From Cornus controversa (taxonomy: Eukaryota > Streptophyta > Magnoliopsida > Cornales > Cornaceae), in contig CM048848.1 of the NCBI GenBank assembly GCA_026545225.1, positions 48,516,306-48,580,305 of the forward strand: DNA of 64,000 bases, given 5' to 3'. The notes beneath the pieces are model-generated. The model saw only the letters and a program-made list of their open reading frames with translations. It was not told the DNA's origin and made no database searches. Position numbers and translations under genes: made by a program. This document shows, one piece after another, positions 14,378 through 63,613 of this stretch (within the stretch, counting starts at the first letter, position 1; each line of letters opens with the position of its first letter).

Positions 14378-17300
14378 TTAAAGCCTTCTAATTGGATTTC
14401 TGTAAGATCCTTTCTGTATTATTCTTTTCATGAAAATTTGATCCATATGTTTGTAGTACCATTGTCTCCATCTTTTAGAGAACACAAGTGGCCAAATGAT
14501 AATTGCTAAGCCCACAATAAATCCCAATGCTGCACTTAGGTACACCTCTGTCTCAAAGATTGAATGCCGATCTTTGAATACTAGTGGTGAATCTTGTGCA
14601 ACTTCAGTATTATTGCAACTTACGTTTAAAGGGAAGCCGCATAGTCCAGGATTCCCTAGAAAGGATGTTTCTGAGAATGTCTGAAACTGGGGACCTGTTG
14701 GAATTCTTCCAACCAATAGATTGTATGACACATTGAAGACCGAAAGAAATGTAAGACTTGCAAGTTGTGTCGGAATCATCTCGATCAACATGTTCTGTGA
14801 AAGGTCTAATGACTCAAGCTTCTTCAAGTTTCCTAATGATGTTGGAATTGAGCCCTTGAAGGCGTTGTGCGATAAGTTGAGAAGAACAAGAGATTTGAGA
14901 TTTTCAACCGTATCTGGTATTTTTCCTTCAAATCTATTGCTTGACAAATCAATGGATGTAAAGATAGTTAAAACTTTCACCAGCTCCACGTATATCCCTT
15001 TGTAGATGACATCCACTCGATTTGAATAGTACTCAGAATATCCAAAATAATAACCCAGATTATTTAACTTTGGTTGGGCATTATCCTCGTCAGTCATCAT
15101 TGCCTTCCAATTTGAGAAGAAACTTGATGATAGAGCGCCGCCAAAGTTGTTGAAAGCTAAGTCAATGATCTGAAGATTCCACAAGCTTTCATTATTTCTC
15201 CCTTGGCAATTAATGTCTCCTTGGAACCTATTAGAGCGCAAAACTAAAACATGTAGACTAGATATGTTCTCCAAAAAGCATGGAAATCTGTCACTTATCA
15301 TGTTATTGCCGAGGTTTAAAACCTCCATCCCTCTACAATTGGATAATGATTTCGGAACTCGCCCTTCCAAATGATTACCATTGAGATCCAAAGTCTGTAG
15401 ACTACAGTTTTTTGGAAATATACTCAAAATATTTCCACTAAATCTATTATTTCGTAGATTCAATACTCCAAGAGTACTAGTACTCCTTTGGATCAAACAT
15501 GATGGTATTGTGCCATTTAGACGATTATTAGACAAATCTAGAACTTCAAGGTTTCCCATCTTGCATATTGATTGAGGAATGTTTCCACTGATATTGTTAT
15601 TTGAAAGAGAGAAGAAATAAGCATCGGTGAGGACATTACCAATAGTAGGAGGGATAAAAGAGCTGAAACTATTGCTTGAGAAGTCTAGGTATTGAACTGA
15701 TCCTCTTGGTATTGGGATTTCTCCATGGAGTTGGTTTGAGTGTAGGTCAAGGACACTCAAATCAGATAGGAGAATAACATAGGGTTCTTGAAAATCAGAT
15801 AGGAGATTGTGAGAGAGATTCAAGTAATACAGCCCTCCATTCCCAACTTTCCAAATCCAGTTTGGTATTTTCCCTTCAATTTGGTTGTCCGAAAGGTCCA
15901 ACTGTTCCAGTCTTGATTGGTTCTTTAGATCAGGAAAACTTTGCAGCTTGCAAGAAGCCAAAAGCAATCTTACAAATTGGGGGACGGAAGACAAGCTTGA
16001 ACTAGTACCACTGGTTATATGGATTGACAAGCTGTTGTATGAAAGGTCAAGGAAAGAAAGATTGCTCAGTCTATAAAACTTTTCCAGTTGTATTGTGCCA
16101 CTGAAGTTGTTGGAATTGATTACAAGGTTAGTAAGCCTTCCGAGCTTAAAAAAAGACGTGGGAACCGATCCTTGTAAATTGTTAATACTCAAATCAATTG
16201 AATAGAGTAGAGAAGAGGAAGCATTAGAAAATTCATCAACTTGACCATCAAATTGGTTAAATGAAAGATCAATGGTATCCAGCGATGGGAGTTCAAAAAG
16301 AGATGATGGAATGCTTCCACTGAGTGAATTATGACTTAAATCAATCAAAACAAGATTCGATAGGCCTTCTGCTGATGGGATTGGACCAATAAACATGTTG
16401 CACGACAAATCCAAATAAACAAGTTGAGTAAGGTTTGCCATTGAACTTGGGATTGAACCAATAAACATGTTGTATGACAAATACAAAGAAACAAGTTGAG
16501 TAAGGTTTGCCAATGAACTTGGGATTGGTCCAGTGAAGCTGCAATTGTGAACATGTATCGTGGACAACATCCGAAGGTTACCAATAGAATCTGGAAATCT
16601 CCCAGAAAAATTTGTGTAGCTGAGAATCAAGGTCTGGAGAGATCCATTTTGCGAAAATTCTGGAAAAGAACCCTCAAGTAATTCATTGTACGCTAAAGAA
16701 AGCGTACGTAGAGTTTGTATGTGGAAGATATTTTTCGGAAATGTTCCTTGCAAATTAGAATTGTAGAGATATAATTCTGTCAAATTGGTGAATTTTGCAA
16801 AGAAATTTGGAAGTGGGGCGGATAAATTGTTCTCACTCAGATGAATCACCGAAAGGGACTGGAGATTCTCAAGGGAAGAACAAAGAGGACCTGAGAGATC
16901 ACAACCAGACAAGCTCAAGACTTGCAGATTAGGGAGTGAAGAAGATATGGCTTCACACCATTCCTCTCCCTTGGACGATATGTTTACATAATCAAGACGG
17001 AGTTCTGTGAGCTCTGTCAGATTCTGAACAAGCAATTTTAGATTTGAGTTGCCAACTTCTAAATTGTAGCCCCAAGGCAAATAAACAGACAAATCCAGAG
17101 AAACTAACCTTGTCAAGTGTGAAATTCCAATAGGAATTTGTCCGGAGAAGCCAGCATTTGACAAATTAAGATATGTCAAACTACTTAGCTTCTCAAACCC
17201 AGATGAAATGTGCGAGGGGAAGAAGACGTTATTAGCAAGATTCAAACGTTGAAGATGTCGGAGACTGAAGAGACTACTTGAATTGTTAATGATTCCTCCA

Positions 17301-17572
17301 GAGATTGATTCAAAGCTCAAGTCGAGACCAACAACATAACCCGTATCATCATCGCACGTTACACCACCCCACTCGCAACAATCCGTGTTATGATTCCAGA
17401 GCACCAACTTGGTTGAAAGTGAAGAGTCGAATATGAGACTGTTCTTTAACTGGAGCAACAAACTTTTCTGATGCTCTAAACATTGGCTCTCAACTGGAAT
17501 ATTACAGAAGAAGATTGAGACTACTGTGGTTGTGGTGATCAAGAAAAGCCATGGCACGACTGAAACCCTCAT
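14378..17572 (-). CDS. RLP1: Ve1-like LRR receptor-like protein (intronless, 1064 aa)
   Basis: A cell-surface immune-receptor-like protein without a kinase domain. Residues 1-29 form a signal peptide ending PVES. The LRR N-cap follows with CLEHQKSLLLQLKN and the DCCEWGGVTCD cysteine motif (about 31-75). Roughly thirty extracellular plant-type LRRs (LxxLxxLxLSxNxxxGxIP) run to about residue 960, broken by an island (NWKAMMTDEDNAQ to KGIYVELVKV). A C-cap (GLCGFPLNVSC) and an acidic spacer precede the transmembrane helix at about 1012-1031. That helix contains GFIVG, the GxxxG motif linked in RLPs to SOBIR1-type adaptor-kinase pairing. A basic 33-residue tail ends NPIRRL. The closest family I recall is tomato Ve1/Arabidopsis RLP6/7. 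The ATG follows a TATA box by about 60 bp. The ligand cannot be inferred. Confidence 0.95.
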   Translation of the reverse strand: MRVSVVPWLFLITTTTVVSIFFCNIPVESQCLEHQKSLLLQLKNSLIFDSSLSTKLVLWNHNTDCCEWGGVTCDDDTGYVVGLDLSFESISGGIINNSSSLFSLRHLQRLNLANNVFFPSHISSGFEKLSSLTYLNLSNAGFSGQIPIGISHLTRLVSLDLSVYLPWGYNLEVGNSNLKLLVQNLTELTELRLDYVNISSKGEEWCEAISSSLPNLQVLSLSGCDLSGPLCSSLENLQSLSVIHLSENNLSAPLPNFFAKFTNLTELYLYNSNLQGTFPKNIFHIQTLRTLSLAYNELLEGSFPEFSQNGSLQTLILSYTNFSGRFPDSIGNLRMLSTIHVHNCSFTGPIPSSLANLTQLVSLYLSYNMFIGSIPSSMANLTQLVYLDLSCNMFIGPIPSAEGLSNLVLIDLSHNSLSGSIPSSLFELPSLDTIDLSFNQFDGQVDEFSNASSSLLYSIDLSINNLQGSVPTSFFKLGRLTNLVINSNNFSGTIQLEKFYRLSNLSFLDLSYNSLSIHITSGTSSSLSSVPQFVRLLLASCKLQSFPDLKNQSRLEQLDLSDNQIEGKIPNWIWKVGNGGLYYLNLSHNLLSDFQEPYVILLSDLSVLDLHSNQLHGEIPIPRGSVQYLDFSSNSFSSFIPPTIGNVLTDAYFFSLSNNNISGNIPQSICKMGNLEVLDLSNNRLNGTIPSCLIQRSTSTLGVLNLRNNRFSGNILSIFPKNCSLQTLDLNGNHLEGRVPKSLSNCRGMEVLNLGNNMISDRFPCFLENISSLHVLVLRSNRFQGDINCQGRNNESLWNLQIIDLAFNNFGGALSSSFFSNWKAMMTDEDNAQPKLNNLGYYFGYSEYYSNRVDVIYKGIYVELVKVLTIFTSIDLSSNRFEGKIPDTVENLKSLVLLNLSHNAFKGSIPTSLGNLKKLESLDLSQNMLIEMIPTQLASLTFLSVFNVSYNLLVGRIPTGPQFQTFSETSFLGNPGLCGFPLNVSCNNTEVAQDSPLVFKDRHSIFETEVYLSAALGFIVGLAIIIWPLVFSKRWRQWYYKHMDQIFMKRIIQKGSYRNPIRRL

Positions 17573-17628
17573 TTTTTAGGCAACAATAAGTGAAGTTGAA
17601 GTGAAGAGCTGGGGATGACTCCAACTCT

Positions 17629-26759: not shown

Positions 26760-26997
26760 CATGTTGTGTGCTATATGTAATAAGATTAGCATCTCAAGTA
26801 TCTCGAGAGTTATTAGATAGTCTCAAATAAATTATATGTAAAAAGTTCAATTAATTAAATAGCTTACTGTTATTATGCAAGGAATTGCAAGCTTACTATA
26901 TGCATTGATCTTTTATTTTTCTCTCCAATGGAATGACTCAAGCCAAAGACTACAAGTTTTTCACAAGAACTTCACTTCATTCACTTCTCTTCACCCA
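26760..26997. repeat. RLP proximal 3' flank relic
   Basis: Aligns with the 3' flanks of RLP1 (14,160-14,377) and RLP2 (39,010-39,221): AATTGCAAGCTTAC, CCAATGGAATGACTCAAGCC and CACTTCATTCACTTCTCTTC. It adjoins the RLP tail fragment directly, so an RLP gene once ended here. Confidence 0.8.
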
Positions 26998-27066
26998 CTA
27001 AAGCCTTCGAATTGGATTTCTGTAAGCTCCTCTTTGTATTATTCTTCTCAGGAAAACTAGATCCAT
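26998..27066 (-). pseudogene. RLP C-terminal tail fragment
   Basis: The minus strand encodes MDLVFLRRIIQRGAYRNP then IRRL and a stop, matching the last residues of RLP2 (MDRIFLRRIIQKGAYRNP). Homology to the RLP genes stops upstream of this point, at the codons for Met-Asp. The rest of the RLP ectodomain and membrane helix is absent, replaced by HD-Zip sequence in the same reading frame. Confidence 0.9.
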
Positions 27067-27317
27067 AAGTGTCTTCACTTGTTCCATGTTAAGCCTCCTG
27101 ATCTTCTTCTCTCCAGCGAACTGTATTTGTGACCAATCCTCGGATATAGACAAATCATCAATATCCCCATTGTTAATAGTTTCTTCACAAACCTCAATAC
27201 CTGAAAATGACAAGGATCTCTCCCTAGAAATGAAGCAACACCTATACCACCAACATAAACATATATTTCAAGTTCATTAAGAGAGAGAATATATAGTACT
27301 ATATATACACACACACA

Positions 27318-27353
<36 letters not shown>

Positions 27354-27509
27354 TGGTAAAATTATGCATGTGTCTAAAATGAATAGAGAGACATAGAGAG
27401 AGCTCTAGTCCTGGAAGTTTTGAAATGAGCATGGGGTAAGAGAGGTGGGGGGTTGATGATCATCTTCAAGAGAACTTTGTAGCATGAAATTTGTAGTGAA
27501 GAAGTCCAT
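27067..27509 (-). pseudogene. 5' part of an HD-Zip class I gene (ATHB13/23-like), fused to RLP tail
   Basis: Minus-strand pieces read MDFFTTNFMLQ and EDDHQPPTSLTP (start at 27,509). An intron-like stretch with a (TG)n tract follows. GVASFLGR comes after a TATAG acceptor, then SLSFSGIEVCEE, DDLSISEDWSQ and GEKKIRRLNMEQVKTL. These are the N-terminal landmarks of HD-Zip I transcription factors of the ATHB13/20/23 group, up to the first residues of homeodomain helix 1. The family continues LEKNFE, but here the frame passes into the RLP tail. The homeodomain core and leucine zipper are missing. A one-base shift lies between FLGR and SLSFSG, and the first-exon end has no clear GT donor. The DNA keeps an intron, so it is a genomic fragment, not a retrocopy. 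It is a pseudogene or chimeric gene. Confidence 0.8.
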
Positions 27510-28116
27510 TCCAGAACCTATACTTGTGCCACCAATCTAAAAAACTGTGGCTGATCTTACTGTCAACTTCAGAGAGAGAGAGAGTGGACAGGTTTAATTT
27601 AGTGTGAGAGAAGGAATTAATAGGAAGACTATATCACATAAATTTCTTTATTACAATTGGAAGGAGATGCACTAGTTCCTCTGATGGATAACTTATATAT
27701 ATACCTTACAACTTCAAGGAAGAGTTTATTATTTACACACACATACATAATTGTACGTGTGTGAATGGGAAAGAGAGAGCTCTCTCTTTCTTTCTTAATT
27801 TGTGTGTGAAAGTGGGATTTTAATATAAATTTACTTGTGATTAATTAAAATACTTAGATGTTCTGTGGTTGCTTCTCAAATGACATATTTCAATGATGCA
27901 TATAGTTATAGCTTTTTTCATAGTTCGCATTTATTTTTCCTCCTTAAGCGACAATAGTATTGTATATTTTTCTACATGGACAGTTGTCACTGAACATAAA
28001 TTTTAAGAAACTAAGCAAGCACTTGTGGGGTATAGCTTATTTGATTCGTTTGCTAAAGGAGAGAGGGAGGGAGAGAGAGTTCAAATTATATACTAGGTGC
28101 TTGTTCGTTGAGAATG
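27510..28116 (-). promoter_or_regulatory. Possible leader/promoter of the HD-Zip fragment
   Basis: Upstream (minus-strand sense) of the HD-Zip start lie CT/GA-rich tracts and a TATATATAAG-like box near 27.7 kb, as expected for a plant 5' region. No boundary to other elements is obvious before the LINE target site at 28,117. The evidence is position and composition only. Confidence 0.35.
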
Positions 28117-28128
28117 GGATATATGGCT

Positions 28129-28661
28129 CATCACACTGCTGCCTGGACTCATCAGACTTTGCATATCTCCCACAAGCTGATCCTTGCAGCCACTGTCTAC
28201 TTCATCTAGAAAGAAAGGAATAATCGTGTCTTAAGGACAAGGTCTCCACTGCCCCAACTATCATCAAATCTATTATTGGAACAATCAAACTTAGGCTTTA
28301 TCCTTGCTCCTTCAGAAACAGCAAAGCAGCTAGATCGTTAGCATCATTATGGCATCTTCCAAGCTCCTCCATTAGGCCATCGAGGAAACCTCCTAGACAC
28401 CTCTTGATATTGAAATTGAAATTGAACTTCACTCCCATTACTCACGGTCGTCTATGATCATGCTCCTGATGCCTTCTGTTGCTTAGTCGCCATACTGCTG
28501 CTTTTGATTTCCTTTGTGCTGTTTTCTCCTCTTATATGCTTTGTCTCAAACACTTGATGTTCACTGTATTGTTCCCTTGGTTTGGCTCATTTGTTGCTGC
28601 TCTGTAGCTTGTTTTTTCTTTGGAGCCTCTTGTACATGACATTTACCAAAAAATAAAAAAA
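28129..28661 (+). mobile_element. 5'-truncated L1-type LINE with clean target-site duplication
   Basis: Flanked by perfect 12-bp repeats GGATATATGGCT (28,117-28,128 and 28,662-28,673). It ends in an A-rich tail (AAAAAATAAAAAAA). Near the 5' end the plus strand reads LAATVYFI, a stop, then KERNNR, resembling the C-terminal end of plant LINE reverse-transcriptase ORFs (zf-RVT region). A GT-rich 3' UTR follows. The insertion is about 533 bp including the tail, hence heavily 5'-truncated and dead on arrival. The perfect duplication suggests a fairly recent insertion. Confidence 0.85.
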
Positions 28662-28757
28662 GGATATATGGCTTGATGAAGAGAAAAATAAATGCATGTT
28701 ATGATTTATAAACCTTTTATTTTAGTACCCTTCGTTTGGGATTTTTTAGGAGAGCAA

Positions 28758-29078
28758 GGGTCTCTTTGACATGCGTTTTGTTTTTGTTTTTCTGTTTTGT
28801 TTTGGTATTGTAAAAATAAAGTATGTTCGGTATCGTCCGTTATGTTTAAATAGTGTTAAAACGTTTCAAAATTTTGAACCGAAATTGAAAACACCATTTT
28901 AGTGTTTTTATTGTGTTTCAATAACTGTTGCAGGAAAAAAAAAACAAAAAACACTTAAAATATATTTTCAATACCAAACATATTTTTGATTCTATTTAAA
29001 ACACACTCGTAACAAAACACTTGTTCTGTTTTAGACAGAAACAAAACATCAAAAACAAAACGCATGTCAAACAAGCCC
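28758..29078. mobile_element. MITE with CATGCGTTTTG ends
   Basis: The left end reads GGGTCTCTTTGACATGCGTT. The complement of the right end reads GGGCTTGTTTGACATGCGTT, giving inverted repeats of about 30 bp. The flanks are CAA and TAA, compatible with a 3-bp target site of the PIF/Harbinger type, but this is uncertain. It is 321 bp with no coding capacity. Confidence 0.75.
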
Positions 29079-29082
29079 TAAG

Positions 29083-29241
29083 TATCACGTTTCACATCTT
29101 CTAGGGAGAGTTAATTAGTTGAAGTTTATATATGTGTGGGACATCTCTTAATTATGTAGACGCATCTGGAGTAAAATTGTGAGCACCGAGAAGAGAATGT
29201 GCAAAGTGAAGAATATCTATAAAGTACGGGTGGGTCATGAC
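29083..29241. repeat. Left part of duplicated locus A
   Basis: Matches 48,238-48,387 (locus B): CACGTTTCACATC, AGTTGAAGTTTATATATGTG and GAGCACCGAGAAG are shared in order. The match continues on the other side of the hAT-like element. Confidence 0.85.
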
Positions 29242-30303
29242 CAGGGCCGGCTGGACCATTAGGTGACTTAGGCTAAGGTCCCAACCAATATAATTCATTA
29301 ATTAGGCCTCAAAAAAATCGTATTCCCTTGTATTTAGGCCTCAATGAGTAGAATGTATTAAAGTAGGCTTCTATAATTTAATTCATCTTATTTTCATTGG
29401 ATAAGTGATATTGAAAACTTATAAAACTTGTCAACTACTCTTTGATTTTCTCAATTAAACTCCTATTGTTAATTTTTTATAGTTATCTCTTACGTGACAA
29501 TAAAAGTTTTTATTCATCTTATATTAAAAAGTGATGAAAAAATTCAACTACTCTTACTTTTTTTTTCTAATTTCCTATCTTTTTTTAATTAAACTCCTAA
29601 TTTTTTTTTTAATTTTTTTTATATCCTTATCTCTCCTCATTAGAGACAATTTTTGTTCTCTTCTCCTCTCTTCATCACATATGTCTTCTTCTCTTCCCTT
29701 ATTACAGTTTCTCCATGAACCCATTTTTCTCACCATGTCACTCTATCGTCTTTTAGACTCTTCTATATTTGTTTTCTTACCAACAAGATAGTAATGATTT
29801 TCTATTTGGGTTCAATAACTTGAAGGGGAATTACAAAATAGGAGTAAAAGTGTTGAAGAATTTGTTGGAGCATTTGAAAAGATTATAACATCAAGTTCTA
29901 TTGTTATTTAAATTAATTTATTTTGTAGTTTTATTATTTTTTGTTATCATAGAAATTGTATATTTGGTTTCTGGCAATTTTTATTTATATTATTAAATAT
30001 GTCTAATAGAAATTATGATTCACGATATGAAATTTTTTTTATAAAGAGTAAAATAAATAAAATAATTCAATCTAAAAAAAGCTCTTGATAAATTTGTTAC
30101 AACTAATAATCAAAATATAACAAAAAAAATTTAGATTAAAATTTAAAAATAAATGACCATGTTAATTAATTAGTAACTTTGCATCTCAAAAAGTAAGAAA
30201 AATAATTTTTAAATAAATTATTAACTATTATTTGATATTAATATTTTTAAATATTAAATGGCCACTTATATATTGGCCTAAGGCCTCAAATGTTATTGAG
30301 TCA
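29242..30303. mobile_element. Non-autonomous hAT-like element, copy A
   Basis: The left end is CAGGGCCGGCTGGACC. The right end in the better-preserved copy B reads, on the complementary strand, CAGGCCAGTTCAATAAC. Flanking 8-bp direct repeats are GTCATGAC (29,234-29,241) and GTGGTGAC (30,304-30,311), 6 of 8 identical. It is AT-rich and lacks transposase. Subterminal words AGGTGACTTAGGC and GGCCTAAGGCC face each other. Copy B at 58.4-59.4 kb has the same internal sequence. Confidence 0.75.
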
Positions 30304-30823
30304 GTGGTGACAAATGCTTTACACAAGTTCAAGTTCGTCCATCGAATCAATTCTAAAAAAGAGTGATTGTGACGTTTCACATCATTTGAAGGAGAAGTGG
30401 TTGAGACTTACGAGTGTATGTCTATTAAATATGTAAAATCATAAGTATCAAAATTAGAGTGTGCAATGCAGACAATCGAAGAAAGACCTGTGATCAACTT
30501 AGAAAATCAAAAAAGTAGAGTTGATGTGTTGAACTTTTCTGTTGTTTTAGTTTTGTAAAGAAGAAGTTGCTTAAGGAAAAAGAGAAATGAGTTGGCAATA
30601 TCTTTTGAAGTTTTGTAAGTAGGAGAGAGAGAGAGAGAATCTAGGAATGGGTCCTATAAAGGGGCCAGGGGATGTCACCCAACCCACAAACAGGTATCGT
30701 GCACCTGGACGAAGCCCTTTCCTATCAATTATCCCCTCAGCGAGAGAGAGAGAGAGAGAGCGCATTGAAAAGCCCAAGCACCCACTTTCTTAACCCTACC
30801 AAGCTGGTATTTTTGTCCTTGTG

Positions 30824-30894
<71 letters not shown>

Positions 30895-31190
30895 TTGTCA
30901 TTTATGTGACCCTAAACCGATTTTAGAGTGTATATTGTCACACATAAGCAAGCAACCCACCCATAGTGAAACGGAACATTCACACACAAGTAACTAAACA
31001 ACAGTTCTTTATACAACACAGGTTTTAATGGAGATATTAGTGTATTTCAAGTGCTAAGAAAGAAGGAAGCAATTAAGAGAATTGAATCGAGTTTTAAATT
31101 ATTATGTTTTCTTAGAAAACAAAAAGTGTTCTTAGAAAACAAAAGGTGTGGCAAGGATTATTCTCAACATAAATATCAAATAAGAAAAAG
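30304..31190. repeat. Right part of duplicated locus A
   Basis: Homologous, with gaps, to 59,431-62,860. Shared phrases include ACAGGTATCGTGCACCTGGA, AAAAGCCCAAGCACCCACTT and TTTAGAGTGTATATTGTCAC. It contains (CT)n(TA)n at 30.83-30.89 kb. It shows what locus B looked like before three insertions. No gene is recognised. Confidence 0.85.
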
Positions 31191-31306
31191 GGATAATTTG
31201 ATTTTTGTCTAGTTATGGAACCAATACTACAAATATATTAAATACCAAAAATTATTAAAACATTTTTTAACTTAACAAAAAATAATTACAAATACATCAA
31301 TATATA

Positions 31307-31974
31307 CTATTTTGGTCCAAAATGCCCCCAACACCTTCTTGGTCCAAAATACCCCACCACCACCACAGTCCCCACCCACCCCAACAACCACCACCACCGC
31401 CACAGTGCCCACCCCTATAGCCACCACCATCCCCACCAGTGCTGTCGCCCCCAACACCTTCTTGGTCCAAAATACCCACATCCGCCACCACCATCCCACA
31501 CCATAACCACATCAGCCACCACCACTCTCTCTCTCTCTCCACAGATCTCTGAGAATCATCCCTTGGATCTCTCTCTATACACACAAAGATAGACAGACAC
31601 ACAAAGATACATAGACAAAGTGCACAGAGGCTGACGTAGAAGCAACCGATTCCGATTGAAAAGGTCGCCGCAGCCGCCGACAATATGAACCCTCATGGTT
31701 TTGGTGTGTTGAATAGATTCACACAACCCAAAAATTCATCATCGTCGCCCTGCCTTCGCATCTCTAATTTTAAATCTGTGTATATATGTATATACACCAA
31801 CCAACTTCACTTCGATCTTTGTCATCGATAAATTGTGAGTGGATTTACAGAAATTGCACAAACCCTTGACAACAAACACAATCGTTCAAGCTCCAATTCG
31901 ATTGGTTTGCTCTGCAAAGGCCTTGGATTCACAGTTACGATTTTTTTTGGATAAATGATTCACAGTTACGATTG

Positions 31975-32010
<36 letters not shown>

Positions 32011-32482
32011 ACAACATAGCTTGTTTGTGTGATACATTTGGGTCTTCGATTTGAGATTATAGCTGGTTTGTGTGAAACATTTGGGTATTGTGGTGGTGAG
32101 CACTGTGGTTGTGGGGATTGTGGTGGTGGTTGTAGGGGTGGCGGCGAAGAAGGTGGTGACGACAGTGTGGTGGTGGTGGTAGGGGTGACGGCGGGAGGAG
32201 GTGGTGACGACGGTGGTGGGTGTGTTAATGGGTATACATTAATTCTGTTAGTGGCAGCGCCACTGGTGGTAGTGGGGTGGGGATGGTGGTTGCTGCCGCC
32301 GCCAGTTAATGTGGTTGTGTTGTGGGGATGGTGGTGGCGGATGTGGTCGTGGTGTGGGGATGGTGGTGGCGGTGACGGCGACGACATCACTGGTGGAGAT
32401 GGTGGTGGTTGCAAGGGTAGGCACTGTGGTGGTGGTGGTGGGTGGGGACTGTGGTGGTTGGGGGCATTTTGGACCAAAATAG
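31307..32482. mobile_element. Foldback element with CCA/GGT-triplet arms
   Basis: Both ends carry the same 26-bp inverted repeat, starting CTATTTTGGTCCAAAATGCC, and the similarity extends inward for about 150-200 bp. The left arm is rich in CCACCA triplets and the right arm in GGTGGT. TA dinucleotides flank both ends, but a longer duplication is not clear. Mariner-like and MULE-like origins are both possible. A second internal copy of CTTCTTGGTCCAAAAT occurs near 31,460. The middle (31.52-32.0 kb) has a (CT)n tract, 5'-UTR-like sequence and a short ATG-led frame starting MNPHGFGVLNRF at 31,686, possibly captured host DNA. The long Pro/Thr/His or Gly/Val/Trp frames across the arms are products of the triplet repeats. 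Confidence 0.75.
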
Positions 32483-32484
32483 TA

Positions 32485-32672
32485 CAAAATAAAGCATCCC
32501 ATGGACCCGCACCAAGAGATACAATCATCTACACAAATCACTTATACACGTTAGAAATAAGTGTACACAGATAATGTAATTCACCAAAATCTGCCCTCAA
32601 ACAAAAACCATCAAATCTCAACTTCAAAGCCTTTATATACTACAATATAAATTTAAATCTCATTTTTATTTT
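32485..32672. repeat. Repeat R, copy 4, left part
   Basis: Starts within R's CAAATAAA motif, exactly where the foldback element ends, and is interrupted at 32,673 by a MITE. The right part resumes at 33,600. Confidence 0.8.
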
Positions 32673-32936
32673 GGGAGACGATATTCGCACTCTCATTTTT
32701 TACATTTACACTCCCATCTCAAGAGAAATGTCACTTTTAACCTTCACTTCACATGTAAATGATTAATTTTTTTTTAAATACTAAACTACCTTTCAGACAT
32801 TCTCTTCGTCTCCTATCTTTAATGTTTTTGGTCTCTTTTGACCGGATCCAAAAATAATACATGGAAAAAAATAATCCAAAAAAAAACTCTCTCTTTTTAC
32901 GAGACCCAAAAAAAGTTATTTATGTTGAATAAATTA

Positions 32937-32973
<37 letters not shown>

Positions 32974-33599
32974 AAGAAATTATATCTTTTGGCATGAGAT
33001 AAAAAATATATATATATGTTGAATAAATTATTTCATTTGGCAGGAATTAGAAATTAAAAAGTACCCAAAAAATAGTTATCATTGTTAAATAAATTCTCTC
33101 TTGACATGACAAAGAAAAAGTACCTAAAAATTTTTATTCATGTTGCGTAAACTATCTACATTGAGAGTACCTAAAAAAAAGTTATCATTATTGAATAAAT
33201 TATATCTTTTGATAGGTTCAAAATAAGAAATTATCTCTAATAAATAAATTAGATCTATTGGAAGAAGTAAAAAAAAAGTTATTTTTGTTGAATAAATTAT
33301 CTTTTTGATAGGAAGAAAAAAAAAAGACCAATGAACAAGTTATTTCTTTTGACAGAATAAAAAAAAAAAAAGTACTAAAGAAACTAAAAGAATTTTAAGA
33401 AAAAATTATCTCTTTTGATATGACCCAAAAAAAACATACTCATAATAAAGAAACTAAAAAGGTAAAAAAGAGTTTAACTTTATAGTATAAAGGTTAGTTG
33501 TGGTATTATAAAATAAGGGATGGTATATTAATTAGTTTAGGGATTTTTTTTAAAAGAAAAAGGTAGGTGGAGTGCAATTGTAAAAAATGGGAGTGTCCC
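32673..33599. mobile_element. MITE with internal AAATTATCTCTTTTGA repeats, copy 1 (inside R)
   Basis: The ends GGGAGACGATATTCGCACTC and (complement) GGGACACTCCCATTTTTTAC are imperfect inverted repeats. The flanks TTTATTTT (32,665-32,672 and 33,600-33,607) are compatible with an 8-bp duplication within a low-complexity target. The interior consists of about eight to ten degenerate units built on GTTGAATAAATTATCTCTT and TGACA(G/T)G(A/G) words, plus a (TA)n tract. A second copy in the opposite orientation is at 61.44-62.27 kb. Confidence 0.75.
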
Positions 33600-34098
33600 T
33601 TTATTTTTTATATACATTTTTAATTAGTAATTAACCACATGATTACTTTCTTTCAACATTTATAGCTCTACAAGGTTTGGTAATTTGCTTTTTCATAAAC
33701 TTCTCATCACTTTATAAATTTATCTTGACCAAATTTAATTTAGGGCAAATTACAAAAAATCCTCCCAAACTATTGAGATTTTGCAAATACCCCCTTTCAA
33801 TGTAAAAAAAGAACCTTAAAACTATAAAATGTTAACAAATCAGAACATTATGATCTTCAGGCCTTTTGTTGGGTGGGTAAAATGACTTATCGACCCTCAA
33901 AATATCTAATATTATTATCTAAATCAAAGAAATTTTGAAATTTTGAAATTAATAAAAATCTCATAGAGGATGACATTTCATTAATTTGGCTACCTTTCCT
34001 AGACAACTTCACAACTCTCAACTCTCACGACTTAACAGCCTCAACTCTCTCACCACTCTCAACCTCATACAACTCCAGTTTTTATAAGATTACATAGA
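33600..34098. repeat. Repeat R, copy 4, right part
   Basis: Resumes R with TTTATTTTTTATATACATTT and runs to CAACTCCAGTTTTTATAAG. The split fits cleanly around the MITE, which therefore inserted after this R copy was made. Confidence 0.8.
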
Positions 34099-34318
34099 CA
34101 TGGGTATGGGTATGGGATGTGTCCAACATTTTTTATTGGACATGCACCTCAAAAGTATACCATATAATTCAATTTTTTTATATTATTGTTTTAAGAAGAG
34201 TGAAATGTCTATATTGGACAATATGTCTTATAAAGACAGTCTCTTTATGTCCTTTTATTTTTAGATTTGACATGTCCAACGCTTGGACATGTAACCGCAC
34301 CCAACACACATACCCGAG
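34099..34318. mobile_element. MITE X, copy 2
   Basis: Begins GGGTATGGGTATGGGATG and ends CCAACACACATACCC, with CATGTCC/GGACATG words inside, as at 10.45 kb. Located directly after R. Confidence 0.5.
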
Positions 34319-35665
34319 TCCATGTAACATAGAGTCACCAAGTAGATTTGCACAACCGTCAGGAGTGCAGCTTCGAGCAGAACCTCTACATTCACGACAA
34401 CTTGCATCTTCCCATGCTCCGTACAACAAGGAATTTCTTCTCAAGGTATTCCAAGTTCTCAAAAGAGACTTAAGATTGGGAGGTATCTGTCACACCCCCA
34501 AGTTGAGGTCGGGGTATTTCTGCCCTTTCACTCAACTTGTAATTGACTTAATATCACATTCATCATAATCGAATCCACAATATAATTAATCATAGAATTA
34601 ATAATATCCTAACACAACCTGATCTCATAATGTTCCATATAAAAGACGTAACAACCATAACATATGTTCATATGACAGAAGTACCAACTGATATCAAGAA
34701 AATTCAATACAACCAAATCAAAATTATCCATCTATAACAATCCTTACTACAAAAGTTTGTCTCAAGAACTGAAAGAAAAGAAAAGAATAACAAGGATCCA
34801 CTAGAACAATCCTCACATGAAATCCTCCTCCAATATGCTAAAGATGCTGATTTCACACACCTGAAATGTGGAAAAAATAAGAGGTGAGCTTCACCACTAT
34901 ACTTCAACAAATAGTACAATGAATTAATTAATATAGATAATCATATGGTGCATTAATTTACGAAAATGAAAGTATCTTCAACATCTTCAAATATTTAACA
35001 ATAAACTAACAGGATATTGAGATTCCATCTCCTACCCCAACTCAAACATTTCAAGTCTATTGGCCAATACGGAGTGCAACCTAAAAATATGGTCATGATG
35101 TATTTGAACTAAAAGATTCTTTAACAAGTTTAGCCCACGGCCTCATCAGACCTAACTTCCATTTAATCAATCTATATTCATGACAATAATCCTCACAAGA
35201 GATCACTAGATATAATATATCCTGAAATGTGGAGGAACAACAACACAACTCAAGCTCTAACATAGAGTTAATAAGTATGAACTATGTCCAAATCGTAAGA
35301 TAAGTGATATGGAGAGATACACACACTCTGAACCAAAGAAACACACACACTCCACACAAAATGAGTAATATGGAGGGACACACGATCCACATCGGATGGA
35401 CCCGCAACTCCATCGTAAAAATGAGTAATGTGGGGAGATACACACTCGTTGCCAGAGGGACTCGCAATTCCATGCTGGAGGGACATATACACACTTCATG
35501 AAAATATAAGTAATGTGAAGGGACACACACTCTGCTATAGAAGGACCAACAACTCCACGCTGGAGGGACACATACATACTCCAGTAATCTTAGCCATCAC
35601 CATCGGCCACACACTCACACCCACACACAGACCACTCACCCCCCCCCCCGACACACACACTTGAA
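34319..35665 (+). mobile_element. Fossil gypsy-type LTR element, copy 2 (partial)
   Basis: Same order as 10.7-12.0 kb: internal 3' end, TGTCACACCCCCAAGTTGAG at about 34,488, ATATGTTCATATGACA, and the degenerate AGTAATRTGGAGGG array (35.29-35.58 kb). It stops near 35,665 after a run of C, so the distal part of the LTR present in copy 1 is absent. Broken and old; no partner LTR is visible. Confidence 0.6.
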
Positions 35666-36319
35666 CTCTTGACGTTTTGTTTGATTTTAAAATAAAACTT
35701 CTAAAAACTATATTATTATGTGATTAAATTAACTATTTTAAAGTAGTATAGTGTAGATATATTTACCTTGTATATATATAAATTATTTAAATTTGTGAAG
35801 GGTGAGACTCAAAACAACAATAAAATTCCTTTTCAAAAAATTCTTATTCATTCGTAGAGCAAGAAAAAGTAGAGAATCATTGTGATAAAGATTTACTTCA
35901 GGGATTTTATAATATTTCTCTTTTCTTGCCGCGGGAAAAAAAATCTAAACTAAAATAATGCATTATAGAAAAGGGCAATTGTGGTATTAAAAATGTAAAA
36001 AATCAAGTATAGTATGATTTAGGCACTCTTTCGTAATCCCATTTTAAACAAAAAAGGGAGTGGAGTGCCTGAGAAGAGTAGTGCCTGAGAAGAGTAGTGG
36101 AGCGTTGATATCAATAGCCTATGTATAGTCCACTAATTTATCTTTTGATGAGGGAATTTTAAGCAATGGCCTTATACCATGATGGGAATGCATCCTATAA
36201 TCTAAAAGGAAAATGGGATACACCACTTTTTTCTTTTTGGACAAGGACCCACCAATCTTTGCTTTGGTCATGAAGAGAAGTGTTGAAGTTCCTACCAATA
36301 CAATGTCCTGATTTTTTAT
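35666..36319. other. AT-rich intergenic stretch
   Basis: No gene is recognised. A short direct repeat of GAGTGCCTGAGAAGAGTA occurs near 36,060-36,095. The piece around GGGAGTGGAGTGCCTGAG and AGGCACTCTTTCGTAATCCC may be a degraded MITE end, but the second end is unclear. Confidence 0.35.
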
Positions 36320-36758
36320 AGGGTAAATTTCTTTGACCTCCTTTGAGATTTTGTTTAATTATCCTTGGATTAAAGTTTGTAAAATATGGTGGTCAACTTT
36401 TCTTGAGGTTTGGTTGACTTTACTCGGGTACCCCTGTTGTTAATTGACAGTTAGTTCCGTTAAAGTCAATTAGAATAAAAATCAAATTGTCAAAACTATC
36501 ATCGGTGGTGGTAATGTTGGTGTGACATTGATGGAGAAAATACATGTATAAAACATGGTAGTATCAATCAAAGGATTAGAAATTTAGGTTATTTTTGCAT
36601 AAAAGCAATATAATTTGAGAATACTTTTGTAATTGTATATTATATGTGATTTTGTTTAACGGATCGATAATTTGACAGAAGTGTTAGAGTATTTTGCACA
36701 AACTTTAATTTTAAGGTAATTTAAGTCACACTTCAGGAGAGGTCAAAGTAATTTACTC
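36320..36758. mobile_element. MITE with GGGTAAATTTCTTTGACCTC ends
   Basis: The left end GGGTAAATTTCTTTGACCTC is mirrored by the right end, whose complement reads GAGTAAATTACTTTGACCTC. Both are followed inward by related sequence. It is about 440 bp with no coding capacity; the target duplication is unclear. Confidence 0.7.
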
Positions 36759-37019
36759 TTTTTCATATTTGGCCAAGACAAACAACTCTCATGGAACCAC
36801 ATGTTTTTATTAGTTGGTACATAGAAAGTGTACCCCCATTGGAATGGGGTGGATCCATGTTCTTAAACCCTATTGTGTTGCTCTTGTTGTGCGTATGTAT
36901 ATACAGTAATATTTATACAATTAAAATTATAATTATTATAGAAGTAAAATTATAATTATTATAGAAGTAGTGACCAAAATTTAAGAGCATAAGTCATGTA
37001 AGCATCGAAGAGAATTTTG

Positions 37020-37284
37020 AGATCACAGTATTTCATTTTACTATTTCTATTTTTTTTTCCTTTTATAGCAGCCATGTGAATTGAGATTGTACTATGCTTA
37101 CCCAAACAACAACAACAACAACAACAAAAAATAAAAAAATCCTACTCTTGTTGAACTCAACACGCTTGCAGTTCAAATCCTATAAAGCAATTCATGAATT
37201 ATATGAAACAAACTGCAACAAATGTCAAAATAAACTATATGTAATAGGATTATATCTCAAACATCTCGAGAGTTATTAGATAGT

Positions 37285-37326
<42 letters not shown>

Positions 37327-37440
37327 CATATATATATATATATGAAAACAACTTCAATCCAATATCTTACTGTTATTGTGCAATGAATTACAAACTTATC
37401 ATCTGCATTGATAGTTGATTTTACTCTCCATTTTGGAATG
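37020..37440. repeat. Extra copy of RLP proximal 3' flank
   Basis: Matches 38,890-39,190 just downstream of RLP2 (TTTTATAG, GCCATGTGAATTGAGATTG, AAACAAACTGCAACAAAT), giving a tandem pair about 1.87 kb apart. It contains an (AAC)n tract at 37.10 kb and (CA)n(TA)n at 37.29-37.34 kb. It marks an RLP 3' end now lacking its gene. Confidence 0.8.
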
Positions 37441-39221
37441 ACTCAAGCCAAGACCTCAAATTATTCTTTAATGATAATATTAAAATTAATACAAATAACT
37501 CATTTGGCATAGTGTTGCTAAAAATTATTTAAGCGGGTTATATTTGTATATAAAAAAAAAACTATTAGATGCATCTATAAGAAAATGAAAATACCTTGTA
37601 ACAATTTTCAAAAATTTTTTAAATTTCTATTTTTAAAAAATTTAAAAGGAAAAGAAAACCTAAAATAAAATCATTTTAAAGAAAACCTATTTTTTTTTAT
37701 AAAAAAATCTATTAATGGACATTTTCATAATTATAACATCACTTTAATGATGTATAATCTTCAAAATTTTCTTAAATTCCTATTTTTGAAAATTAAACTA
37801 GAAAAGAAAACCTAGATTTTCTAAATTTTTTATTAAGGGACAATTTTGTCATTATAACATCACTTTAAAGATGCGTAATCTTCAAATTTTTCTTAAATTT
37901 GGTTTTTTGGGAATTAAAAGGGAAAATAAAACTTAAAATGAAAATCATTTTAAAGAAAACCTAAATTTTCTTAAATACTATCAAGGGGGTTTTATGGAAA
38001 AATCTGATAGTCCAAGGGGGTTTTATGCAATTTTCTCTTTCTTAATTTTCTATTGAGGGGCATTTTTGTCATTTTAATAATACTTTATGGGCGCATGAAA
38101 CTCATGTGCCCTTTAGCCGTTAATTTTTTGAGGTTAGTCTCAAAGTTGCAATAAGTGATGGTTTAAGTCAAATTATTAGTCAAGGGAGAATTTAGGCTAA
38201 TTTTGAATAGTTAAATAGGATTTTTTGCAATTTGCTCAATTTGTAAGGTAAAACTACTAAAGTTCCTGTAATAATGAAGTTGAGTTTTATCTTTCTTTTT
38301 ACCGTAAATAGGTTTGGAGACAAAAGAGTTTATAATTAGAATCTATATATGTTTTTAATAATTTGATTTTAAAGTTGCCAAAACAATGTCTGCTATCGAC
38401 AAGTCCTAGCATGGCCCAAGGAAATCAAGTCCAAGCTCACTAATCAGTCCAAACTGGGAGTTTCGGATCTCAATATTTTGTCATTGGGAGTTGGCCCAAA
38501 ATATAAAACTAGTGTTGGAGTAGGTACTAAGTTTGAATTTATGCATAATTTTGAAACTCGGCTATATGCTTGATATAGGTATAGCCTCCTGATTGTCATA
38601 ATGTTTGATCATTTTTTTATTATTATTTTCTATATTTCAGAAAATTTTACGGTTATATATATATATATTTTTATCCATAAACTACACTCTTTTTCTTTTT
38701 TCTTTTCTTCTTTTTTAACTGCATTCATTTGAAAGGAAACTATTCATTAACTTATATAGTAAGAAGAAAATTTATTGTATATAAATTGTGGGTGTGTGGG
38801 CTATGCTTGAACTTTTGAAAAAAAAAAAAAAGAAGAAGAAAATTTATGACCAAAATTTAAGAGCACAAGTCATATAAGCAGCAAAGAGAATTTTGAGATC
38901 ACCAGTATTTCATTTTAATTTTTCTGACTTTCTTTTTCCTTTTATAGGTGCCATGTGAATTGAGATTGTACTATGCTTACCCAAACAACAACAAAAATAA
39001 ATCCAAGACTTCAAGTTCAAACCCTATAAAGCAATTCATAGATTATATGAAACAAACTGTGATAATCCCATATATATTATATGAAAAAAACTTCAATCAA
39101 AAAGCTTACTATTATTACCCAATGAATTGCAAGCTTACCTGATGGTTGATTTTACTCTCCATTGGAATGATTCAAGCCAAGACTTCAAGATTATCATGAC
39201 CACTTCACTTCACTTCACACA
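37441..39221. repeat. RLP2 3' flank (duplicated block D2, downstream part)
   Basis: The counterpart of 12,690-14,377. Compared with that block it has a small insertion near 38.76-38.90 kb (an A-rich tract with repeated AAAATTTATGACCAAAATTT), and other indels. No separate gene is visible. Confidence 0.85.
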
Positions 39222-42200
39222 CTAAAGCCTTGGAATTGGATTTCTGTAAGCTCCTTTCTGTATTATTCTTCTCAGGAAAATTCGATCCATATGTTTGTAG
39301 TACCATTGTCTCCATCTTTTAGAGAACACAATTGGCCAGATGATAATTGCTAAGCCCACGATAAATCCCAATGCTGCACTTAGGTACACCTCTGTCTCCA
39401 AGATTGAATGCCCATCTTTGAATACTAGTGGTGAATCTCGTGCAACTTCAGTATTATTGCAACTCACGTTCAAAGGGAAGCCACATAGTCCATGATTCCC
39501 TAGAAAGGATGTTTCTGAGAATGTCTGAAACTGGGAACCTGTTGGAATTCTTCCAACCAAAAGATTGTATGATACATTGAAGATCGAAAGAAATGTAAGA
39601 CTTGCAAGTTGTGTCGGGATCATCTCGATCAACATGTTCTGTGAAAGGTCTAATGACTCAAGCTTCTTCAAGTTTCCAAATGATGTTGGAATTGAGCCCT
39701 TGAAGGCGTTGTGCGATAAGTTGAGAAGAACAAGCGATTTGAGATTTCCAACCGTATTGGATATGTTTCCTTCAATTCTATTGCTTGACAAATCAATGGA
39801 TGTAAAGATAGTTAAAACTTTCACCAGCTCCACAGATATCCCTTTGTAGATGACATCCACTCGATTTGAATAGTACTCAGAATATCCAAAAAAATAACCC
39901 AGATTATTTAACTTTGGCTGGGCATTATCCTCGTCAGTCATCATTGCCTTCAAATTTGAGAAGAAACTTGATGATAGAGCGCCGCCAAAGTTGTTGAAAG
40001 CTAAGTCAATGATCTGAAGATTCCACAAGCTTTTATTATTTCCCCCTTGGCAGTTAATGTCACCTTGGAACCTATTAGAGCGCAAAACTAAAATATGTAG
40101 ACTAGATAAGTTCTCCAAAAAGCATGGAAATCTGTCACTTATCATGTTATTGCCAAGGTTTAAAACCTCCATCCCTCTACAATTTGACAATGATTTCGGA
40201 ACCCGCCCTTCCAAATGATTACCATTGAGATCCAGACTCTGTAGACTACAGTTTTTCGGAAATATACTCAAAATATTTCCACTAAATCTGTTATTTCGCA
40301 GATTTAATACTCCAAGAGTACTAGTACTCCTTTGGATCAAACATGATGGTATTGTGCCATTTAGACGATTATTAGACAAATCTAGAACTTCAAGGTTTCC
40401 CATCTTGCATATTGATTGAGGAATGTTTCCACTGATATTGTTATTTGAAAGAGAGAAGAAATAAGGATCGGTGAGGACATTACCAATAGTAGGAGGGATA
40501 GAAGAGCTAAAACTATTATTTGAGAAGTCTAGGTAATTAACTGGTCCTCTTGGTATTGGGATTTCTCCATGGAGTTGGTTTGAGTGTAGGTCAAGGATAC
40601 TCAAATCAGATAGGAGAATAACATAGGGTTCTTGAAAATGAGATAGGAGATTGTGAGAGAGATTCAAGTAATAAAACCCTCCATTCCCAACATCCCAAAA
40701 CCAGTTTGGTATTTCCCCTTCAATTTGGTTGTCCGAAAGGTCTAAGTCAGCCAGCAATGGTTGCTTCCTTAGATGAGGAAAACTTTGTAGCTTGCATGAA
40801 GCCAATTTCAATATTTTAAACTGAGGTATGGAAGACAAACTTGAATTATTGGCACTTGTTGTATGGATTGACAAGCTGTTGTATGAAAGGTCAAGGATAG
40901 AAAGATTGGTCAGCCTATAAAACTTTTCCAGTTGTATTGTGCCACTGAAGTTGTTGGAATTGATTACAAGGTAATAAAGACTTCCGAGCTCAAAGAAAGA
41001 CATGGGTACCGATCCTTGTAACTTGTTATTGTTCAAAACAATAAATTGGAGCAGAGAGGAGGAAGCATTAGAAAATTCATCAACTTGACCATCAAATTGG
41101 TTAAATGAAAGATCAATGGTTTCCAACAATGGGAGTTCAAAAAGAGATGATGGAATGCTTCCACTAAACATGTTATTCGACAAATCCAAATAAACAAGTT
41201 GAGTAAGGTTTGCCATTGAACTTGGGATTGGTCCACTGAATCTGCAATTTTGAACATCTATCGAAGACAACATCTGAAGGTTACCAATAGAATATGGTAA
41301 TCTCCCAGAAAAATTTGTGTCACTAAGAATCAAGGTCTGGAGAGGTCCATTTTGCGAAAATTCTGGAAAAGAACCCTTAAGTAATTCATTGCCGGATAAA
41401 ACAAGCGTACGTAGAGTTGGTATGTGGAAGATATTTTTCGGCAATGTTCCTTGCAAATTACAATCGTCGAGATATAATTGTGTCAAATTGGTGAATTTTG
41501 CAAAGAAATTTGGAAGTGGGGAGGGGAAATTGTTCCCGCTAAGATCGATCAGAGAAATGGACCGGAGATTCTCAAGGGAAGAACAAAGGGGGCCTGAGAG
41601 ATCACAATAAGGCAAGCTCAAGACTCGCAGATTAGGGAGTGAAGAAGATATGGCTTCACACCATTCCTCTCCCTTGGACGATATCTTTAACTTACCAAGA
41701 CGGAGTTCTGTGAGCTTTGTCAGATTCTGAACAAGCAATTTTAGATTTGAGTTGCCAAGTTCTAAACCGTCGTTCAAAGACAAATCCAGAGAAACTAACC
41801 TTGTCAAGTGCGAAATTCCAATAGGAATTTGCCCGGTGAACCAAGCATTTGACAAATTAAGATATGTCAAACTAGTTAGCTTCTCAAACCCAGAAGGAGA
41901 GGAGTTGAAGAAGTTATTAGCAAGATTCAAACCTTGAAGATGTCGGAGACGGAAGAGACTAGTTGAATTGTTAATGATTCCTCCGGAGATTGATTCATCG
42001 CTCAAGTCGAGACCAACAACATAACCATACCCCGTATCATCATCATCGCACGTTACACCACCCCACTCACAACAATCCGTGTTATGATTCCAGAGCACCA
42101 GCTTGGTTGAATATGAAGAGTCGAATATGAGAGTGTTCTTTAACTGGAGCAACAAACTTTTCTGATGCTCTAAACATTGGCTCTCAACTGGAATACAGAA

Positions 42201-42269
42201 GAAGATTGAGACTACTGTGATTGTGGTTGTGGTGATAAAGAAAAGCCATGGCAAGACTGAATACCTCAT
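39222..42269 (-). CDS. RLP2: Ve1-like LRR receptor-like protein (intronless, 1015 aa)
   Basis: A paralogue of RLP1 with the same plan. It has a signal peptide (MRYSVLPWLFFITTTT to PVES), an N-cap with CLEHQKSLLLQLKN and DCCEWGGVTCD, LRRs, an island (NLKAMMTDEDNAQ to KGISVELVKV), a C-cap GLCGFPLNVSC, a membrane helix with GFIVG, and a tail of 33 residues ending NPIPRL. It is 49 residues shorter than RLP1, nearly all because two consecutive LRRs (RLP1 residues from about 370, with FIGSIPSSMANLTQ) are missing. The C-terminal half is almost identical to RLP1, while the N-terminal LRR half carries most substitutions. It acts at the plasma membrane, presumably with a SOBIR1-type adaptor; the ligand is unknown. 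An intact frame over 3 kb indicates a functional or very recently functional gene. Confidence 0.95.
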   Translation of the reverse strand: MRYSVLPWLFFITTTTITVVSIFFCIPVESQCLEHQKSLLLQLKNTLIFDSSYSTKLVLWNHNTDCCEWGGVTCDDDDTGYGYVVGLDLSDESISGGIINNSTSLFRLRHLQGLNLANNFFNSSPSGFEKLTSLTYLNLSNAWFTGQIPIGISHLTRLVSLDLSLNDGLELGNSNLKLLVQNLTKLTELRLGKLKISSKGEEWCEAISSSLPNLRVLSLPYCDLSGPLCSSLENLRSISLIDLSGNNFPSPLPNFFAKFTNLTQLYLDDCNLQGTLPKNIFHIPTLRTLVLSGNELLKGSFPEFSQNGPLQTLILSDTNFSGRLPYSIGNLQMLSSIDVQNCRFSGPIPSSMANLTQLVYLDLSNNMFSGSIPSSLFELPLLETIDLSFNQFDGQVDEFSNASSSLLQFIVLNNNKLQGSVPMSFFELGSLYYLVINSNNFSGTIQLEKFYRLTNLSILDLSYNSLSIHTTSANNSSLSSIPQFKILKLASCKLQSFPHLRKQPLLADLDLSDNQIEGEIPNWFWDVGNGGFYYLNLSHNLLSHFQEPYVILLSDLSILDLHSNQLHGEIPIPRGPVNYLDFSNNSFSSSIPPTIGNVLTDPYFFSLSNNNISGNIPQSICKMGNLEVLDLSNNRLNGTIPSCLIQRSTSTLGVLNLRNNRFSGNILSIFPKNCSLQSLDLNGNHLEGRVPKSLSNCRGMEVLNLGNNMISDRFPCFLENLSSLHILVLRSNRFQGDINCQGGNNKSLWNLQIIDLAFNNFGGALSSSFFSNLKAMMTDEDNAQPKLNNLGYFFGYSEYYSNRVDVIYKGISVELVKVLTIFTSIDLSSNRIEGNISNTVGNLKSLVLLNLSHNAFKGSIPTSFGNLKKLESLDLSQNMLIEMIPTQLASLTFLSIFNVSYNLLVGRIPTGSQFQTFSETSFLGNHGLCGFPLNVSCNNTEVARDSPLVFKDGHSILETEVYLSAALGFIVGLAIIIWPIVFSKRWRQWYYKHMDRIFLRRIIQKGAYRNPIPRL

Positions 42270-42324
42270 CTTTTAGGCAACAATAAGTGAAGTTGAAGTG
42301 AAGAGCTATTGTTACGGGTGGTTG

Positions 42325-45647: not shown

Positions 45648-46530
45648 CAGGGTTGACCCTGAGATTCCAAAAATTTTGAGAGACCCTAGAAAGACTTTCA
45701 AATGGGTGCCCTTTATATATAAAGTTTAACATGTGCATAAATTTTATAGGGGTGCAAAAATTTTCTTATTGCTAGGTCCTGATAACTCATAAGCATTTAT
45801 TATCCATGATTGAATTAGTGAATTAGCTTATTAGATTATAGCTAATGGCCTATATATGCAGCTGTTATAGTACTGAAAACAAATCTATTAATATATTATA
45901 TATATGTATGAATGTCTTTATGCATATTCAATTACACAATTGTAACAAAATTAATGGAAAGGTAATTAAATATGAAATCTAAAACATAATTAACCATAAA
46001 ATAACCTTAACAACTTGAATCACAGTAAACAACTTTTGTGCATTCAATATCCAAAAGAAACACATTAATTAAGCTGATAGAGAAAACGAACCAAATCAAA
46101 GGATTGAAAATTTTAAACCCTTAATTTTTGAAGAATTTTTTTTTTCAAACCCTAAATACCAAATCAAATTATGATCAAAACTCCCCCTTTTCAAACCCCA
46201 AATAAAATAATCTTAACAACTTAAATCACAACAAACAACTTTTGTGCATTCAATAGCCAAAACAAACACATTAATTAAGCTAATAGAGAAAACGAACCAA
46301 ATCAAAGGATTGAAAATTTTTAATTCTTAATTTCTGAAGAAAAAAAAAATTCAATCCCTAAACCCCAAATGATCAAAGTTCCCCCCTTACCTAAGAGACC
46401 AAAATGAGTTGTTTGCTGCTGGAATGAAGAAAGAAGAAGAAAAATGAGAGAAAACGAGTTGCTTGCTGCTGGCGTGAAAAAGGAAGTAAAAAACAAGTTA
46501 TAAGGAAAAAAGAAGAAAAAAACAAGTTAT
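45648..46530. mobile_element. Probable hAT element end with internal 206-bp tandem duplication
   Basis: CAGGGTTGACCCTGAGATTC at 45,648 resembles common plant hAT termini. The far end is not identified. Inside, about 206 bp beginning AAAATAACCTTAACAAC occurs at 45,998 and again at 46,204, with moderate divergence. No transposase frame is visible. Probably a truncated non-autonomous copy. Confidence 0.5.
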
Positions 46531-46532
46531 TA

Positions 46533-46945
46533 GTCTACTGCGGGTGTCCATCCATACGTGCTGGCTTTAAGATAGAGATGGGGGTTTCCATCTCTTGTTA
46601 GTCTAATGCGGTTGTCCATCCATACGGGTGGTGGCTTTAAGATAGAGATGGGGGTTTCCATCTCTTTTTAGTCTAATGGGGGTGTCCATCCATACGGGTG
46701 GTGGGTTTAAGATAGAGATGGGGGTTTCCATCTCTTATTAGTCTAATGCGGGTGTCCATTCATACGTGGTGGCTTTAAGATAGAGATGGGGGTTTCCATC
46801 TCTTTTTAGTCTAATGGGGGTGTCCATCCATACGGGTGGTGGCTTGGAGTTTCCATCTCTTATTAGTCTAATGCGGGTGTCCATCCATACGGGTGGTGGC
46901 TTTAAGATAGAGATGGGATTGACTCCAAGTCTTCTTCTTTTTTTT
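46533..46945. repeat. 69-bp minisatellite, six copies
   Basis: Units start at 46,533, 46,601, 46,671, 46,741, 46,809 and 46,866 (68, 70, 70, 68, 57 bp, last partial). Each reads GTCTAATGCGGGTGTCCATC, then GTGGCTTTAAGATAGAGATG, then GGTTTCCATCTCTT. The seed phrase is the one found once in each distal RLP 5' flank (19.5, 23.3, 43.86 kb), so the array amplified from that segment. The fifth unit has lost about 12 bp. The last unit runs into ATTGACTCCAAGTCTTC, as the single-copy versions do. Confidence 0.95.
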
Positions 46946-63536: not shown

Positions 63537-63613
63537 CTAAAGCCTTTGTATTGGATTTCTGTAAACTCCTCTTTGTGTTATTCTTCTCAGGAAACTCAAT
63601 CCATATGTTTGTA
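63537..63613 (-). pseudogene. RLP C-terminal tail fragment, copy 2
   Basis: The minus strand reads YKHMD, then in a shifted frame LRRITQRGVYRNPIQRL and stop, matching the RLP tail (LRRIIQKGAYRNPI). A one-base loss separates the two parts. Upstream, RLP homology ends abruptly at the codons for YKHMD, where repeat R begins. It is a remnant of a further RLP gene. Confidence 0.85.

Follow-up and report, generated by a model that had tools for sequence, protein, structure and literature searches.

Clusters of RLP genes of the tomato Cf-4/9 Hcr9 type consist of tandem LRR receptor genes accompanied by partial copies, and lipoxygenase fragments are duplicated between the Hcr9 genes. Chimeric genes at the breakpoints of duplications are also of a known kind. 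The literature yielded little on chimeric genes within RLP clusters or beside them (PMC3049755 does not bear on this point), and a text search of the literature with one HD-Zip peptide gave no match. The locus described here is like the Hcr9 clusters in having tandem LRR receptor genes together with partial copies, but its neighbour is an HD-Zip I gene, a fragment of which continues in frame into an RLP tail. The original prediction had proposed that the start of an HD-Zip I gene and an RLP 3′ end were joined ectopically. This proposal is supported by an intact parent gene at a distance of 68 kb and by the abundance of RLP tails in the cluster, with the refinement that the HD-Zip part is the terminal piece of a duplicated block, >10 kb long, which also carries part of an RLP gene.

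The window, i.e. the whole stretch of 64,000 nt that was analysed, corresponds to C4:48,516,306–48,580,305 (window coordinate = C4 coordinate minus 48,516,305), has no N bases, and was searched against the 771.7-Mb assembly of 61 contigs; its gene content suggests a plant. Within the 200 kb fetched around it, RLP genes form a tandem cluster on the minus strand, with fragments besides four long RLP frames of 1,016–1,066 codons (C4:48506467, 48530686, 48555530 and 48617740). Long uninterrupted RLP frames occupy window positions 14381–17575 (1,065 codons from stop to stop) and 39225–42272 (1,016 codons from stop to stop), and Pfam identified LRRNT_2 and LRR domains in both. Comparison of the window with itself also revealed overlapping direct repeats in steps of ∼70 bp at 46527–46917.

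The HD-Zip and RLP landmarks were located where they had been predicted. By sequence homology, the minus strand from 27509 to 27067 corresponds to the beginning of an HD-Zip I gene (exon 1, intron 1 and the first part of exon 2), with its promoter upstream, and from 27070 to 26771 it is homologous to RLP gene 3′ ends. The copy of exon 1 is at 27410–27509 (100 nt) and that of intron 1 at 27242–27409, while the exon 2 start (27067–27241) is truncated where the homeodomain region begins. The copied 5′ UTR and promoter (27510–28126) are collinear with the parent, and the promoter continues past an inserted repeat at 28662–28758. On the other side of the junction, 26998–27066 encodes the last 22 codons and the stop of an RLP (MDLVFLRRIIQRGAYRNPIRRL). 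It is followed by the 3′ flank (26771–26997), ∼230 bases homologous to the flanks of other RLP copies. The RLP-derived part thus covers ∼300 bases (26771–27070); the RLP matches that reach farthest stop at 26771, the others earlier. All these features are on the minus strand.

At the junction itself (27066–27070, minus strand), 27067 is the last base of HD-Zip identity, while homology to the RLPs, with one mismatch, starts at 27070, so that the breakpoint predicted at 27,066/27,067 was right within 4 bases. The two sides have one base in common, and at most four. The chimera reads ACTT here, and among the tails compared only the one at C4:49681726 has the same ACTT (4 bp shared); the remaining tails have CAT ahead of TGG (1 bp shared with the chimera). 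Across the junction a frame is open from stop to stop over 89 codons (26998–27267, minus strand), running from ...SFSG... to EKKIRRLNMEQVKTL and then, past the junction, into MDLVFLRR.... To this extent the claim of an unbroken frame holds, but MDFFTTNFMLQ, which had been included in it, lies on a separate exon and reaches a stop after 34 codons. In terms of descent, the 5′ part belongs to HD-Zip I, as exon 1, intron 1 and the exon 2 start all align, and the C-terminal tail with its 3′ flank belongs to the RLPs. In terms of domains, neither the homeodomain nor the HALZ leucine zipper was found in the 89-aa chimeric frame, which gave no Pfam family at E≤1, as expected because the homeodomain is absent. 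Likewise, an LRR ectodomain and a transmembrane segment are lacking, the matched part being only residues 1043–1064 of the RLP, again with no Pfam family.

Against the same genome, window 27067–27509 matched C4:48475170–48475582 with E=2.0e-160 (49 matches listed; best 40 of 78 candidates scored), and the HD-Zip similarity is therefore far above chance. With a query of 27071–29600, the HD-Zip stretch matched itself and this parent only, among 52 matches listed (best 40 of 1,395 candidates scored); with the shorter query, more distant HD-Zip matches appeared on C2 (69%) and C1 (71%) among the 49 listed. The parent is an intact HD-Zip gene of 285 aa at C4:48,473,693–48,475,582, downstream on the same chromosome and strand. 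It has three exons (48475483–48475582, 48474942–48475345 and 48473693–48474046), a homeodomain (E=9.5e-16) and a HALZ leucine zipper (E=1.9e-15) by Pfam; the C2 paralogue encodes 291 aa. The parent and the C2 paralogue are probably ATHB13/23-like, as judged from their resemblance to sequences of that type. This agrees with the grouping in PMC3060862, which has ATHB3, -20, -13 and -23 together in class alpha, group V.

The HD-Zip part of the chimera is 94.5% identical to the parent outside gaps. The 56 differences over 1,018 sites are distributed as 34/610 in the 5′ flank, 4/100 in exon 1, 10/137 in the intron and 8/171 in the exon 2 part, which indicates that the exons are barely better kept than the non-coding DNA. 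Eight of the 48 exon-2 codons ahead of the junction differ from the parent, and four of these eight change the residue. Two lesions were also observed. The intron had been described as kept: it is present and its 3′ AG is intact, but the 5′ splice site (27409–27408) reads AC in place of the GT found in both the parent and the C2 paralogue. The one-base shift reported upstream is real, and could be refined to the loss of one base from exon 2 around 27221–27223, where the parent and the C2 paralogue read GGGAAGAGA and the copy reads GGGAGAGA.

Because the GT donor of the intron is lost, the HD-Zip ATG at 27509 reads only 34 codons to a stop, and this 34-residue product ends ahead of the junction. 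Without splicing, 2 of the 14 ATGs on the minus strand of 27700–26998 reach the RLP stop, giving 29 and 22 residues, and the other 12 stop elsewhere. The longer of the two starts at 27087, the first in-frame ATG of the open frame. We found nothing to support that the short protein suggested to arise from an internal start is made. Next, every single intron of at least 60 bases with GT/GC–AG borders was listed, the sites being unscored. In this unscored listing 231 frames from any ATG end at the RLP stop, the longest of them (121 aa, ATG 27432) using a different frame of exon 1. The HD-Zip ATG starts 19 of the 231, and RLNMEQVKTL is kept in eight of these 19 (41–93 aa; donors GT in three and GC in five). 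Taken together, the lost splice donor, the frameshift and the absent homeodomain make the HD-Zip/RLP-tail chimera very probably a pseudogene, in line with the original view that it is probably not functional. Most likely it has no role as a protein; the utmost to be expected is that the copied promoter drives a transcript coding for the 34-residue fragment.

The chimera forms one end of a duplicated block (27067–40580, minus strand) composed of the HD-Zip 5′ part, intergenic pieces, a repeated element that we call X, and the 3′ half of an RLP gene. The block follows C4:48475170–48485917 mostly in order, with insertions and two short out-of-order pieces. The pieces in parental order are the promoter (to 28126 and 28662–28758), intergenic DNA (30478–30828 and 30860–31189), element X (32484–32672 and 33600–34464), 36921–39059 and the RLP body (39062–40580). 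The exceptions are 36135–36320 and 36761–36948, which match C4 48477308–48477681, and 34307–35661, which matches C4:48495530–48496868, outside the parent block. Apart from these exceptions, the copy keeps the parental order as far as the junction; past that point there is no relation to the parent block. In a same-strand search, C4 48460000–48475170 gave no match of at least 150 bits in 48476000–48650305; the HD-Zip gene therefore seems to mark the edge of the cluster. A third block, at window coordinates 58435–67218, has intergenic, tail and X parts in common with these two, and no HD-Zip match was found in 56000–72000.

K2P distances between the window and the parent block were 0.057 for the HD-Zip part with promoter, 0.088 for the far promoter, 0.051 and 0.012 for the intergenic pieces, 0.038 and 0.056 for X, 0.091 for an out-of-order piece, 0.078 for the RLP flank and 0.077 for the RLP body. 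Four of the nine pieces thus fall at 0.038–0.058, four at 0.077–0.092 and one at 0.012, and the spread of the eight at 0.038–0.092 would fit a single duplication or several that followed each other closely. The ninth piece, 30860–31189, is only 1.2% different from C4:48480086–48480414, against 3.7–8.6% for the other eight, and does not fit the rest; gene conversion or a later copy is a possible cause.

Several repeats lie in this region. The insertion in the copied promoter (28136–28637) has 11 other copies at 85–91% among the matches listed, is flanked by a repeat of GGATATATGGCT and has an A-rich end, features that suggest a SINE-like element. A short repeat with inverted ends at 28755–29082 appears MITE-like, with >20 copies on many contigs among the matches listed. 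An element with ∼200-bp inverted ends (67% alike) is present at 31305–32484, at the place from which the RLP tail belonging to the block is absent.

We looked for the donor of the RLP tail. The tail (query 440–512) matches 25 other places at 85–97% among 49 matches listed (best 40 of 78 candidates scored). Over the 73 bases of its short coding part, identity with copies at C4:40.2 Mb reaches 98.6%, but over tail plus flank the same copies are only 81–82% identical. A tree of RLP tails, made from the chimera and 22 distinct rows from 24 loci (two identical ones dropped), did not single out a donor. The sequence past 26771 matches other places of the cluster (C4:48.724–48.728 Mb and 14.17 Mb), in a differing order. 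Over tail plus flank, K2P was 0.117 against the tail of the parental block and 0.096 against the tail at window 63394. The tail and flank are thus more diverged than the block, which suggests that the RLP copy to which the tail belonged was probably distinct before the joining. In another recurrent tail fusion of the cluster, lone RLP tails (SMG.FI...KHMD) sit on the foreign element X without an RLP body, at window 63394–63628 and at C4:48481097–48481186, 48488641–48488729 and 48684909–48685123.

From these comparisons, we conclude with high confidence that the chimera is a pseudogene copied from the block of the parent. The HD-Zip I gene adjoins the RLP cluster on C4, and the collinearity shows that a stretch from the interior of its exon 2, through the promoter and the intergenic DNA and into the neighbouring RLP gene, has a diverged copy in the window, presumably of tandem origin. 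At the end of this copy the broken exon 2 meets an RLP 3′ end with 1–4 shared bases. The joining may have occurred by end joining or template switching, and the open frame across it may be a one-in-three accident. In the copy, the splice donor and a base of exon 2 have been lost, residues have changed and repeats have been inserted. A single tandem duplication should have kept the RLP tail of the upstream unit; this tail is missing at 31189–32484, with the 31305–32484 element in that place, so the real history had more steps.

That the joining step was the boundary of the duplication is likely, a degree less firm than the copying itself. The main rival at this step, and at this step only, would have intergenic DNA and the HD-Zip 5′ copy inserted into an X–RLP-tail unit, splitting X (end at 32484) from its tail (start at 27070). 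The X-to-tail gap in other copies is ∼20 bp (window 63608/63628; C4 48481166/48481186), and the end of X in the window and the start of the chimera tail fit the two sides of this gap. However, collinearity with the parent block runs past X to 40580, so that X appears to be part of the copied block, and the tail distances from the parental block and the 63-kb block exceed most of the block's divergence. We regard this insertion as doubtful; as it departs from the main reading in the joining step only, its odds overlap with those of that reading. Capture of the HD-Zip 5′ part by a transposon of the Pack-MULE or Helitron type, which then dropped it beside an RLP tail, could draw on the mobile-element-like sequences nearby (28136–28637, 28755–29082 and 31305–32484), but none of these encloses the HD-Zip piece, and collinearity runs on past the ends of the elements. 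Moreover, intergenic and RLP DNA were copied along with the HD-Zip piece, for the most part in the order of the parent block, and the parent adjoins the same cluster on the same strand, which makes capture very unlikely.

Two further readings concern whether the chimera is real and whether it works. A repetitive tandem cluster might invite an assembly join of two unrelated loci; against this, the window is free of N, the HD-Zip side is 5.5% away from the parent, and the tail plus flank are 9–11% away from the two relatives compared and at least 10% from the other listed places. As neither side duplicates another listed locus, a false join is highly improbable. A young functional chimeric gene would profit from the copied promoter and from the frame open across the junction, and up to 93 aa could be made from the HD-Zip ATG if splicing were permissive. 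The lesions described above and the missing homeodomain speak against it, and in none of the 19 frames from the HD-Zip ATG does a GT donor join the native acceptor at 27241 in the tail frame, only a GC at 27483 doing so. We consider such a gene hardly credible. The same small weight is given to a short transcript from the HD-Zip promoter that, through cryptic splice sites (27475 as donor and 27200 as acceptor would yield 78 aa), encodes a small protein with an HD-Zip N-terminus and a basic RLP cytoplasmic tail; if true, it would be a newborn gene in which pieces of an immune receptor and of a developmental regulator are united.

Returning to the copied pseudogene, the chimera is ordinary in kind, a pseudogene thrown off by a receptor-gene cluster, and our understanding of the HD-Zip and RLP families is unchanged by it. 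It is a clear case of the churn of an immune-receptor cluster copying and breaking the regulator gene next to it, and a single chromosome holds the parent, the copy and the junction in readable form. Annotators are also cautioned that neither an HD-Zip nor an RLP gene is to be called at this place. Compared with ATHB13/ATHB23-type HD-Zip I genes, the intact parent and the C2 paralogue are alike in the N-terminal region and the exon–intron layout, whereas the copy in the window is without homeodomain or leucine zipper. As in the chimeric genes of duplication breakpoints, two unrelated genes are joined here at a boundary with the frame open by chance; unlike them, this chimera is disabled by the loss of a splice site and a frameshift.
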